DNA of 64,000 bases. Origin: an uncultured Verrucomicrobiales bacterium. GTDB lineage: Bacteria > Verrucomicrobiota > Verrucomicrobiia > Verrucomicrobiales > Akkermansiaceae. The notes beneath the pieces were generated by a model, which did not search any database, was not told the origin of the DNA, and saw nothing but the letters and a program-made list of their open reading frames with translations. The stretch spans positions 1 through 64,000 of the forward strand of contig CALFVF010000011.1 in the NCBI GenBank assembly GCA_937928735.1, written 5' to 3'. The position numbers were made by a program, and so were the translations under genes. Shown one piece after another: positions 57,046 through 64,000 of this stretch; the first letter of the stretch is position 1, and every line of letters begins with the position of its first letter.

Positions 57046-57073
57046 TAATACCAACTCAAAAAACTAACTGGTA
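57046..57073. repeat. 28-bp sequence repeated inverted at 25788-25815
   Basis: An exact reverse-complement match to 25788-25815. Here it lies between the SDR gene and the end of ribD, whose stop codon (57064-57066) it overlaps. An AT-rich pair of imperfect arms (TACCAACT and AACTGGTA) with a CAAAAAACT loop suggests a weak hairpin. Confidence 0.7.
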
Positions 57074-58113
57074 TAACGCTTCACTATACCCTGGACTAGC
57101 ACATCATTGTCTATTTTAGTGTAGCTGATTTCCTCTAGTTTTGTGGCTATATCAGCTTTTTGCACACCGTGGCCCGCAAAGCCAGTATCAGAACCTCCAG
57201 TCACCAAAGGGGCGTAGAAAATCGCATATTCATCAATGAGGTCTTGATCGACAAACTCACCCATCAAACGCCCTCCACATTCTAACAAAACTGTCTGACA
57301 ACCTAGCTCTGTAAGGCTCTTTAACACCTCAAGCATCGGTTTATCTTCGTACACAAGTGTACGATCTGCATAAGTGTCAGAGAATAAATGGGCGTCTTTG
57401 GGTAAATTCGCTCTAGAGCGATTCGTCAGCACGACACGGTAGGGCTGTTGCTTGTTTTTTGGAATATCGATTCCCCTTAGAGTCAGTCTAGGATTGTCTT
57501 TTCTCACCGTTCTCCCACCCACAACTATAGCGTCTGCTCTCAGCCTTAAATGTTGGACAATTTCTCGGGATTTCTCAGAGGTCAGCCACTGGCTCTCACC
57601 GGGAGGGCGGGTGATTTTCCCATCCAGACTCATCGCTGTCTTACCAATCACCCATGGTAGGCCCGTTGTCATCGATTTACGAAATGGTCTCAACAAACGA
57701 TCACAAGCTAGCTGCTCAACTCCCGACTTTACCTCGATACCATGTTCTTTTAAAAGGCGGTCTGCCGCACCTACATGCGCGGGATTTGGGTCCATACTCC
57801 CATAAATCACCTTTGAAATACCTGCTTCTAGAATAGCGGATGTGCATGAAGGGGTTCGCCCCTCCGTCGAGCAGGGTTCGAGAGTCACATAAAGTGTCGC
57901 ACCCTTTAGCACAGACATATCAAATCGCTCCCTAGCATTCGCAATCGCTTCGCGCTCCGCATGCCACTGGCCAGCTTGGCTATGAAATCCTCTTCCTAAT
58001 TCTTTTCCATCACGAACAATGACTGCTCCCACTAGAGGATTTGGGCTCGTACAGCCCTCCGCTTTTCTGGCTTCAGAGAGCGCAATTTGCATCCATGTAG
58101 AATCACATTCCAT
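57064..58113 (-). CDS. ribD: Bifunctional diaminohydroxyphosphoribosylaminopyrimidine deaminase/reductase
   Basis: Second and third steps of riboflavin synthesis. From ATG 58113 it is 349 residues. The deaminase half has the zinc sites HAEREA and LEPCSTEGRTPSCT and NPLVGAVIV. The reductase half has GKTAMSLDGKI, VGGRTVRKDNPRLTLRG and LLECGGRLMGEF. Upstream codons to 58134 are open but unlike the family. It reads away from the candidate origin. Other rib genes are absent from the window. Confidence 0.93.
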   Translation of the reverse strand: MECDSTWMQIALSEARKAEGCTSPNPLVGAVIVRDGKELGRGFHSQAGQWHAEREAIANARERFDMSVLKGATLYVTLEPCSTEGRTPSCTSAILEAGISKVIYGSMDPNPAHVGAADRLLKEHGIEVKSGVEQLACDRLLRPFRKSMTTGLPWVIGKTAMSLDGKITRPPGESQWLTSEKSREIVQHLRLRADAIVVGGRTVRKDNPRLTLRGIDIPKNKQQPYRVVLTNRSRANLPKDAHLFSDTYADRTLVYEDKPMLEVLKSLTELGCQTVLLECGGRLMGEFVDQDLIDEYAIFYAPLVTGGSDTGFAGHGVQKADIATKLEEISYTKIDNDVLVQGIVKRYTS

Positions 58114-58160
58114 GACTGAAAATGACCCAACCAATCAAAAATGAACACCCTAAATTTCAC

Positions 58161-58372
58161 TGTGAATAAGCCAGTCTCTCTTTGTGAAGAACTTGTTAAC
58201 TGTGGATAACTGTGAACAAACAGCATCCCACTCGCTCAACTCGTTCCCATTCATCTTTAATTTATTCACAGACTATTCACACCATGGAACATAGATAGAA
58301 TCAGTGAAGAACGGCAATAAAAGCAACTTATTCACACGTAGAAGAAGAAGAATATTTTATTAAAATAATGAA
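58161..58372. other. Candidate chromosomal replication origin (oriC)
   Basis: A 335-base gap holds at least six DnaA-box-like 9-mers: TTATTCACA at 58262-58270 and 58328-58336; its complement at 58161-58169; perfect TTATCCACA complement at 58201-58209; TTGTTCACA complement at 58211-58219; CTATTCACA at 58273-58281. An AT-rich stretch at 58351-58372 could be the unwinding element. Both flanking genes (ribD and the STN-like gene) point away from it. The G/C composition of the top strand changes sign across it. Confidence 0.75.
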
Positions 58373-58470
58373 TCTCTTCTTTCACTCAGAGAATAACTTC
58401 TCTCGAAAAGTCCTGTAACCTTCCGTGCAATGGCACATAGTATACACTAAATCAAAGACTCATTTCTATT

Positions 58471-59031
58471 ATGAACAAACATCTCATTCCTATTCTACTA
58501 AGCTCCATGGTAGTCACCAGCTTAAGCTTCGCTGACGAACTGCAAAACGAACGAAAGCAACACAGTGAGAAAATCCAACAAGCCTACAACAAGGGCATAG
58601 CGCTAAAAGCATTTGATCCTGATCAAGCCGCTCTTCATTTCAAAGAAGTACTTCAGCTCCAACCTCGCCACTCGAAAGCACAGTATGAATTAAATTATAT
58701 CAGAACGCATCGTGATAAAATCCTCAAAGAGAAACAAAGTAGACAAGTCGCCGCTAGTTTTAAGAAAATGAGGTTTGCTGTCGTAGATTTTTCACAGGAA
58801 CCACTCGTTGATGTCATCGATACACTCTACGCTTATATGGACAGAGATTATGGTGTAGATCATGGCGTCAATCTGATTCTAAAAGACCCACAAGGTAAAA
58901 TCAGACAAAAATTGGTCACTCTGCGTTTAAAAAACATACCCGCACCCGCGTTACTCGATTACATCGTACAGCAAGCTGGAGCTTCTTATAAATATGGCCA
59001 GTATGCGATAGAGATTTTTCCAGCACAATAG
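58471..59031 (+). CDS. Secreted protein with STN-like domain
   Basis: 186 residues with a Sec signal (about 1-21). Residues 25-75 are helical, TPR-like (AYNKGIALKAFDPDQAALHFKEVLQLQ). The C-terminal half (about 100-186) resembles the secretin/TonB short N-terminal fold: VTLRLKNIPAPALLDYIVQQAGASYKYGQYAIEI. Verrucomicrobia have many such small STN proteins with secretin-like machines. No secretin gene is adjacent. First gene right of the candidate origin. Confidence 0.65.
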   Translation: MNKHLIPILLSSMVVTSLSFADELQNERKQHSEKIQQAYNKGIALKAFDPDQAALHFKEVLQLQPRHSKAQYELNYIRTHRDKILKEKQSRQVAASFKKMRFAVVDFSQEPLVDVIDTLYAYMDRDYGVDHGVNLILKDPQGKIRQKLVTLRLKNIPAPALLDYIVQQAGASYKYGQYAIEIFPAQ

Positions 59032-59133
59032 AGGGTAGCTCTAGTAGCCCAAGATATTATCTGAGCACAGGGAGGTTTTTTTAGTAAAGAATCTCCTATT
59101 GCTAATCTATGGATTCGAGATTAAGCCAATAGC

Positions 59134-60513
59134 GTGAATTCGGAGATTTTATATCAAGAGCTAGTTAAGCTCTTAGATGAAAGACGTGTTACTTGCGACG
59201 AAAATGCCCTTAGAGAGCATTCGACAGATAAATGGCATGCAAGTGCTATGCCTCAGGTTGTCGTCTATCCTGATGGATCTGGAGACGTTTCAGCGGTCAT
59301 GAAATTTGCCAGTGTCCATGATGTACCCGTGACGACTCGTGGGACAGGCACCGGTCATATTGGAGGGTGTGTTCCTGTGAATGGGGGAATTAGCCTCTCA
59401 CTGAAGCACCTGGATCAAATCATCGAGATCAGTCCTGAGGACGGCGTTGCCGTGTGTCAGCCTGGTGTCATCACAGGGAAGCTCCAAGACGCTGTACGCA
59501 GCCATGGCTGGTACTATCCACCAGATCCAGCCTCTCTCAAGGAATGCTGTATTGGGGGGAATGTCGCTACCAATGCTGGTGGGCCAAGGTGTCTGAAGTA
59601 CGGAGTGACAAAACAATATATCCTAGGTCTAGAAATTGTTTTAGCAAACGGCGATATCCTGCGAACAGGGGGTCGATGTCATAAAAACAAACAAGGATTT
59701 GATCTCGGTGCTTTATTCATTGGTTCAGAAGGGATGCTCGGTGTGATCACAGAAGTGACAGTGCGCCTTATACCGCATCCAAAAGAGAGAGCCATGATCG
59801 GAGCCGCATTCTCAGATTTTTCCCAAGCTGTTTCTGCTGTGCAGTCGATTCTCAACTCAGGTCTCTTACCGAGTGCGCTGGAAGTCACAGACTCGTTTAC
59901 CATGGCAGCAGCCCGAGATTATCTGGGTGCAGAGAAGATGCCGCCGGGTAATGCCTACTTGATGGTAGAAATTGACGGTCAGCCAGAGACTGTGAAGAGG
60001 GAGCTAGAAAAGCTAGAAGCCTATGTGAAGGAATTAGGCTCACTGCGCGTGGATGTGGCCGCGAATGAAGAAGCTTGTGAGGCCATTTGGCAGTTACGGC
60101 GTGATTTTTCCTATTCTCTCAAGGCAACGGGTTTAAGAAAACTGAATCAAGACGTTGTTGTTCCGCGCTCAAAACTCGTCGAACTTGTCGAATTTGCCCA
60201 TTCTCTACAGGAGGAAACGGGACTAGCTATAGCGTGCTTTGGACATGCAGGAGATGGAAACATACACACAAATGTGATGGTAGGTGACTGGGAAGATCCA
60301 GAAGTTAGAGCGTTAGCAGAAAAGACCTTAGATCGCCTTTTTAGTTGGTTGATGAAAGAAGGAGGAGCCGTAACAGGGGAGCACGGAGTGGGACTCGCGA
60401 AGAAACGCTGGCTCGCACAAGCATTGGGTGAAGTCTCCATGCAGACGCATCGGAGTCTCAAGTATGCGCTAGACCCTAAGAATATACTCAATCCCGGTAA
60501 ATTCTTAGACTAA
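59134..60513 (+). CDS. glcD: FAD-linked oxidase, glycolate oxidase GlcD-like
   Basis: 459 residues of the FAD-binding PCMH/VAO fold. VTTRGTGTGHIGGCVPVNGGISLSL binds FAD pyrophosphate, PDPASLKECCIGGNVATNAGGPRCLKYGVT is the classic GlcD signature, and the C-terminal region has FGHAGDGNIHTNVM and EHGVG. It oxidises a 2-hydroxyacid such as glycolate or D-lactate. GTG 59134 is the start. GlcE and GlcF are absent, so the partner or exact substrate is uncertain. Confidence 0.88.
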   Translation: MNSEILYQELVKLLDERRVTCDENALREHSTDKWHASAMPQVVVYPDGSGDVSAVMKFASVHDVPVTTRGTGTGHIGGCVPVNGGISLSLKHLDQIIEISPEDGVAVCQPGVITGKLQDAVRSHGWYYPPDPASLKECCIGGNVATNAGGPRCLKYGVTKQYILGLEIVLANGDILRTGGRCHKNKQGFDLGALFIGSEGMLGVITEVTVRLIPHPKERAMIGAAFSDFSQAVSAVQSILNSGLLPSALEVTDSFTMAAARDYLGAEKMPPGNAYLMVEIDGQPETVKRELEKLEAYVKELGSLRVDVAANEEACEAIWQLRRDFSYSLKATGLRKLNQDVVVPRSKLVELVEFAHSLQEETGLAIACFGHAGDGNIHTNVMVGDWEDPEVRALAEKTLDRLFSWLMKEGGAVTGEHGVGLAKKRWLAQALGEVSMQTHRSLKYALDPKNILNPGKFLD

Positions 60514-62511: not shown

Positions 62512-62527
62512 TGTTTCACGTGGAACA
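62512..62527. promoter_or_regulatory. parS site 2
   Basis: TGTTTCACGTGGAACA is an exact reverse complement of the Bacillus-type parS TGTTCCACGTGAAACA. It is 20 bases after site 1 and 71 before the mnmG start. Binding of ParB/Spo0J is expected. Confidence 0.9.
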
Positions 62528-62598
62528 AATTCAAGAGAATCTATCCTTGCTAGTCACTATCGCTTAGGTAAGTGTTTAGCTCTTTCAGAGTTTTCACA

Positions 62599-64000
62599 AT
62601 GTTTTGTTATCCAAAAGAATATGACGTATTGGTAATTGGTGCAGGCCATGCAGGTGTAGAAGCTGCTATGGCTGCTGCCCGTATGGGTTGCAAGACAGCA
62701 ATGCTGACACAAAATCTTGATACTATAGGTGCGATGTCGTGTAATCCAGCGATTGGAGGTCTCGCAAAGGGTCATATGGTCAGAGAGATTGATGCCCTCG
62801 GGGGTGCTATGGCGCTCAATACCGATGCTACGGGTATTCAATTCCGGATGTTGAATCAGAAAAAAGGCCCTAGCGTGAGAGCTCCTAGAGCACAATGTGA
62901 TAAAAAAGCCTACCAATTTCGCATGAAGTGGATGGTGGAAAATCAGGAGAATTTAGACCTCCACCAAGGCAATGTAGCTGAAATTTTGGTAGATTCTAAT
63001 GACACTGTTTACGGTATTCGGACGAGTTTGCAGATGGAAATTCGTGCGAAAACTGTCATTTTATCCGCAGGTACATTCATGAGGGGTCTTATGCATGTGG
63101 GCTTAAAGAATGAAAAGGGGGGGCGTATGGGAGATGCGATTTCCACAGTTTCAGACAGCCTCAAGGAACTAGGATTTGAGGTAGAGCGCTTTAAGACAGG
63201 GACGCCGTGCCGAATTAATGGTCGATCGATTGACTTTAGTCAATGTGAACGCCAAAACGGTGATACTCCGGCACCTCTATTTTCTTATATGTCAGACACT
63301 ATAGAATATAATAGAGATGATATATTTACATTAAATCATTGGGGTTCAGAAAAGTTCCACGTGGAACAAGCGCCATGCTGGATTACTTGGACGAATCCAC
63401 AGACACATGAAATTATCTCTGATAATCTGCATCAATCGCCGATGTACTCAGGTAAAATCGAGTCTGTAGGCCCTAGGTACTGCCCCTCCATTGAGGATAA
63501 GGTGGTTAAATTTGCAGAGAAAGAACGCCACCAGATTTTCCTAGAACCAGAAGGTAGACAAACACTGGAGTACTATATTAACGGTGTTTCGACATCCTTG
63601 CCCTATGAGGTGCAGCTGGATTTCTTGCACTCTATTTCTGGTTTAGAGAATGCTGAGATCATCCGTCCGGGCTATGCGGTCGAATATGATTACTGTCCTC
63701 CCACACAGCTGTATCCGACTCTCGAGACTAAGCGCGTCTCTCACCTCTATTTTGCAGGTCAGATTAATGGAACCTCAGGCTATGAGGAAGCTGCGGCACA
63801 GGGGCTGATGGCTGGGGTGAATGCCGCCCTAAAGGTGAAGGGAGAAGAGCCATTTTATCTCGGTAGAGATGAGGCCTATATCGGTGTGATGATTGATGAT
63901 CTAGTGACTAAGGGCTGTACGGAGCCCTACCGTATGTTCACTTCCAGAGCGGAGTATCGCCTACTACTGCGTCAGGATAATGCGGATTTACGCCTGACAA
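62599..64000 (+). CDS. mnmG: tRNA uridine-5-carboxymethylaminomethyl modification enzyme MnmG, partial
   Basis: FAD enzyme that, with MnmE, modifies U34 of certain tRNAs. From ATG 62599 the frame stays open past the right edge (467 codons present of about 620). The dinucleotide loop is GAGHAG (residues 14-19), followed by [58 protein letters not shown] and [18 protein letters not shown], all family signatures. It is next to parS sites and near the candidate origin, as gidA often is. No clear ribosome-binding site. Confidence 0.97.
63353..63368. promoter_or_regulatory. parS site 3, inside mnmG
   Basis: AGTTCCACGTGGAACA, identical to site 1, lies within the mnmG coding frame, where it encodes F-H-V-E-Q. 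Selection for ParB binding would constrain these codons. Confidence 0.82.

Follow-up and report, generated by a model that had tools for sequence, protein, structure and literature searches.

A very probable chromosomal replication origin between divergent ribD and STN-like genes in a verrucomicrobial draft genome

The commonest neighbour of the replication origin in bacteria is the dnaA-dnaN gene pair. The window analysed here, which comprises bases 1-64000 of contig C11 (147,610 bp) in a 2.65 Mb draft assembly of 40 contigs (94% complete), raises the question of whether the chromosome of its host begins replication elsewhere, since a sequence-only reading had placed a candidate origin in the intergenic region between ribD and an STN-like gene, away from dnaA and dnaN. 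The results presented below indicate that this region (58114-58470) is, with little doubt, the chromosomal oriC, and most likely a single bidirectional origin. The earlier proposal is supported by the sole minus-to-plus skew turn detected in the 1.97 Mb surveyed, by a parS-like site, by conservation among relatives and by the arrangement seen in the near-complete related genome G005.

The DnaA-box cluster and the adjoining unstable stretch

The features of the locus are listed here by coordinates and strand; no Rfam matches were found in the window.

57067..58113, minus strand: ribD, left neighbour; start taken as the ATG at 58113
58114..58470, no strand: very probable oriC, intergenic between the divergent ribD and STN-like genes
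58161..58169, minus strand: DnaA box TTATTCACA, exact
58183..58191, minus strand: DnaA box TTCTTCACA, one mismatch
58201..58209, minus strand: DnaA box TTATCCACA, perfect consensus
58211..58219, minus strand: DnaA box TTGTTCACA, one mismatch
58262..58270, plus strand: DnaA box TTATTCACA, exact
58273..58281, plus strand: DnaA box CTATTCACA, one mismatch
58328..58336, plus strand: DnaA box TTATTCACA, adjoining the AT-rich stretch; position kept in the genus
58339..58378, no strand: predicted DNA unwinding element, TAGAAGAAGAAGAA run plus AT-rich stretch (82% AT; the 40 bp of lowest stability in the intergenic region)
58388..58396, minus strand: degraded box TTATTCTCT, two mismatches; site of a better box in most same-genus relatives
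58471..59031, plus strand: STN-like gene for a short protein, right neighbour; weak similarity to the Amuc_1098 family of pilus secretins, a hint of Verrucomicrobiota
62512..62527, no strand: parS-like site TGTTTCACGTGGAACA, a single mismatch away from the palindromic consensus
62572..64000, plus strand: mnmG (gidA), running on beyond the window end

When up to one mismatch to TTATNCACA is allowed, seven boxes fall within 176 bp (58161-58336), four being exact and the orientation being leftward in four cases and rightward in three. The sequence-only reading, which had counted at least six DnaA-box-like 9-mers within about 180 bases and a single perfect one, is borne out on both points, the perfect box being TTATCCACA at 58201 on the minus strand. 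In stretches of all 40 contigs amounting to 1.97 of 2.65 Mb, no denser cluster was found, and the second-densest group, at C6:44133, holds four boxes in 200 bp. The Poisson expectation of an equally dense group anywhere is about 3e-5 for all boxes (1.97 Mb) and about 7e-6 for exact boxes only (2.65 Mb).

Two further observations concern the distribution of boxes in this genome. The intergenic region C6:44020-44627, located between trkA and a short gene that precedes fabD, is also box-rich (three exact copies of TTATTCACA along with several near boxes) and is possibly a DnaA-titration or regulatory site. Genome-wide, boxes are enriched some 3-5x over backward-read controls (42 versus 15 for TTATCCACA and 42 versus 8 for TTATTCACA).

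The AT-rich stretch that had been noticed after the boxes corresponds to 58339-58378, which is 82% AT and whose duplex stability ranks in the bottom 0.12% among the 40-bp positions of C11. Beside the right-most box, TAGAAGAAGAAGAATATTTTATTAAAATAATG presents the lowest stability of the intergenic region and is closed by the degraded box at 58388-58396 on the opposite strand. At the position of this degraded box most same-genus relatives carry TTACTCACA, TTATTCACA or a near form, and the order of elements at this edge (box, AAGAAGAAGAA, AT-rich stretch, opposing box) is conserved in the genus.

Skew, dnaA-dnaN and the parS-like site

A survey of GC skew over the same 1.97 of 2.65 Mb, again with stretches of all 40 contigs, revealed a minus-to-plus turn on C11 only, with a change point at 58965, a five-log-unit interval of 58530-59281 and a log-likelihood gain of 513. 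The optimum falls over the STN-like gene, approximately 200 to 900 bases to the right of the boxes, which speaks against the oriC reading. The search for a skew minimum elsewhere, an outcome that the earlier reading had named as refuting, returned none within the DNA surveyed. The remaining contigs are single-signed save for small fluctuations, a weak plus-to-minus trend at the start of C22 and near-zero skew at the start of C6, with the exception of C1, which turns sharply in the opposite direction (plus to minus) near 192 kb. This turn is likely to be the replication terminus. The best matches to a canonical dif site agree at 20 of 28 positions and none lies at the C1 turn, the search having covered C1 outside 200-205 kb.

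Fourfold-degenerate sites were used to separate replication from transcription effects. In plus-strand genes the skew at these sites changes from -0.56 left of the locus to -0.03 right of it (a difference of about 0.53), and in minus-strand genes from -0.02 to +0.56 (about 0.58). Because the shift takes place in genes of both directions, the change of sign is not due to gene direction alone, as the sequence-only reading had argued from the C-rich plus-strand genes on the left (metH, xseA). Of its eight hand-counted lines of G and C, six proved exact and two off by one base.

Clusters of DnaA boxes can also serve titration or regulation, and the cluster might accordingly be read as a datA- or DARS-like site, or as a DnaA-controlled promoter of ribD or of the STN-like gene, with the real origin lying elsewhere. 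The existence of a second box-rich intergenic region in the same genome, C6:44020-44627, favors such a reading, but that region shows no minus-to-plus turn, and the coincidence of the C11 cluster with the sole turn of this kind in the DNA surveyed, with an unstable stretch and with a nearby parS-like site would not be expected of a titration or regulatory site. We consider this explanation very unlikely.

The genome encodes DnaA (C23:48330; 511 bits, Bac_DnaA_C domain present) and, as stated in the sequence-only reading, neither dnaA nor dnaN lies beside the cluster: the two are adjacent to each other on C23. Their standing as the commonest origin neighbour suggests a further alternative, in which replication starts at dnaA-dnaN and the skew turn on C11 is an inversion boundary. 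Such an origin would require a minus-to-plus turn of its own, which no other contig shows in the stretches surveyed, and C23 has positive skew from end to end and lacks a box cluster. An origin at dnaA-dnaN was rejected on these grounds, the residual probability being, in our judgment, minimal.

The oriC reading of 58114-58470 is also congruent with the position of a parS-like site, TGTTTCACGTGGAACA, at 62512-62527, 4.2 kb from the boxes and just upstream of mnmG. This is the better of two such sites in the genome, only one other being found within two mismatches, and a ParB gene is present at C3:44508, so that the pair has the sequence make-up of a putative ParABS system close to the origin. 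In three related genomes (G005, G011 and G034), parS-like sites likewise lie near mnmG, no more than about 9 kb from the cluster.

The locus hence brings together the densest boxes of the DNA scanned, the skew minimum and an adjoining AT-rich stretch in a genome that encodes DnaA, as is characteristic of DnaA-dependent origins. We infer from these elements that DnaA, made from the distant dnaA beside dnaN, would load on the seven boxes, which form two facing arrays, and that the right-hand array would guide it to 58339-58378. This AT-rich stretch would then melt and take the helicase, two forks would depart from oriC in opposite directions and the parS-like site, 4.2 kb away, may function as the centromere for ParB-mediated segregation of the new origins.

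Conservation of the locus among relatives

Of 58 related genomes, 49 contain homologues of the STN-like gene, and 29 of these loci, excluding that of the window, were cut out for comparison. In seven of the 29, all belonging to the same genus (G002, G003, G004, G005, G006, G007 and G011), the STN-like gene is preceded by a box cluster. In another member of the genus, G010, the STN locus is devoid of boxes, and ribD is instead preceded by three exact ones. No exact boxes were found at those of the 29 loci that belong to other genera. Genera g7 and g8 present the divergent ribD-STN pair without a box cluster (loci L113, L115, L119 and L122), and the pair by itself is therefore no origin marker.

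A search with the intergenic DNA of the window yielded matches in G034, G024, G022 and G016, of which those in G034, G024 and G022 immediately precede ribD; the box-GAA pattern retrieved a further site upstream of ribD in G021. A cluster or box-GAA edge upstream of ribD thus spans three other genera (G034, G024, G022 and G021), and in G034, G024 and G016 a local minus-to-plus skew turn lies close to the site.

The near-complete genome G005 harbors four exact boxes in 196 bp (1,723,359-1,723,554), close to a minus-to-plus change. Negative skew predominates until about 1.65 Mb and positive skew sets in at 1.76 Mb, the zone between them being patchy. Speaking against the oriC reading, the skew of G005 contig C1 is patchy from 1.36 to 1.76 Mb; an island of positive skew at 1.55 Mb lies within negative DNA, a pattern of the kind left by recent inversions close to the origin.

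Given that the genome under study is a draft in 40 contigs, a misjoining of two contigs of opposite skew at this point might be invoked to explain the turn on C11. Nevertheless, G005 keeps ribD, the box cluster and the STN-like, glcD-like, degP-like and mnmG genes together, and in G007 the cluster also lies between divergent ribD and STN genes, making an assembly chimera extremely improbable.

Relation to known origins and polarity of the unwinding element

With 58114-58470 taken as oriC, the locus resembles the E. coli origin (gidA-mioC) in being apart from dnaA and in having mnmG/gidA within a few kilobases, but differs in its other immediate neighbours. In both origins the last box points its 3' end towards the AT-rich stretch. 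The box cluster, the unstable AT-rich stretch, the GC-skew minimum, the intergenic position and the proximity of a parS-like site and of mnmG (gidA) are also shared with DnaA-dependent origins of the Ori-Finder/DoriC type (PMC10225481), whereas the neighbours here are ribD and the STN-like gene instead of dnaA-dnaN. The region is very probably an ordinary DnaA-type oriC, and its novelty resides in its location, in a neighbourhood that is partly conserved across the family. A literature search on verrucomicrobial origins or ribD-linked oriC returned nothing relevant, and these results would establish where replication starts in a lineage, probably Verrucomicrobiota, without a described origin in the literature searched. 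They also point to an origin that has stayed next to either ribD or the STN-like gene in several genera, with dnaA-dnaN elsewhere in this genome, and provide a marker for orienting the draft genomes of the family and for growth-rate estimates.

In the basal unwinding system of B. subtilis, the DnaA filament leaves the boxes in the 3'-to-5' direction, following DnaA-trios with the consensus 3'-GAT-5' (PMC8287927, PMC6669920). The locus resembles this system in that an AT-rich stretch of triplet repeats comes after a box, but its conserved GAA run lies on the strand opposite to that needed for 3'-to-5' loading from the adjacent box. Such a system is defined by at least three 3'-NAN-5' trios on the strand that leads 5' from a box, with a spacer of up to 16 bp. 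On the correct strand beyond box 58328, a three-trio run begins 17 bp off, narrowly exceeding the published maximum of 16, and no runs of at least four trios at the published spacing were found on that side; left of box 58161 there is a weak four-trio run (CAC AAG TAA AAA). Due to the wrong polarity of the GAA run, which was dropped as a canonical trio, and to the spacing of the three-trio run, we claim no canonical DnaA-trio here.

The GAA run may instead be a spacer, a mirror-image element that the right-hand box serves, or an element that acts via its T-rich strand as in E. coli. That the conserved (A/T)AAGAAGAAGAA run between facing boxes is an unwinding element with a polarity opposite to that of the DnaA-trio seems unlikely; if true, origins in this family would be opened in a variant manner. 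The conserved box-GAA-box element offers a subject for testing how DnaA opens origins, and a GAA run after a box is also present in genera g6, g11 and g12.
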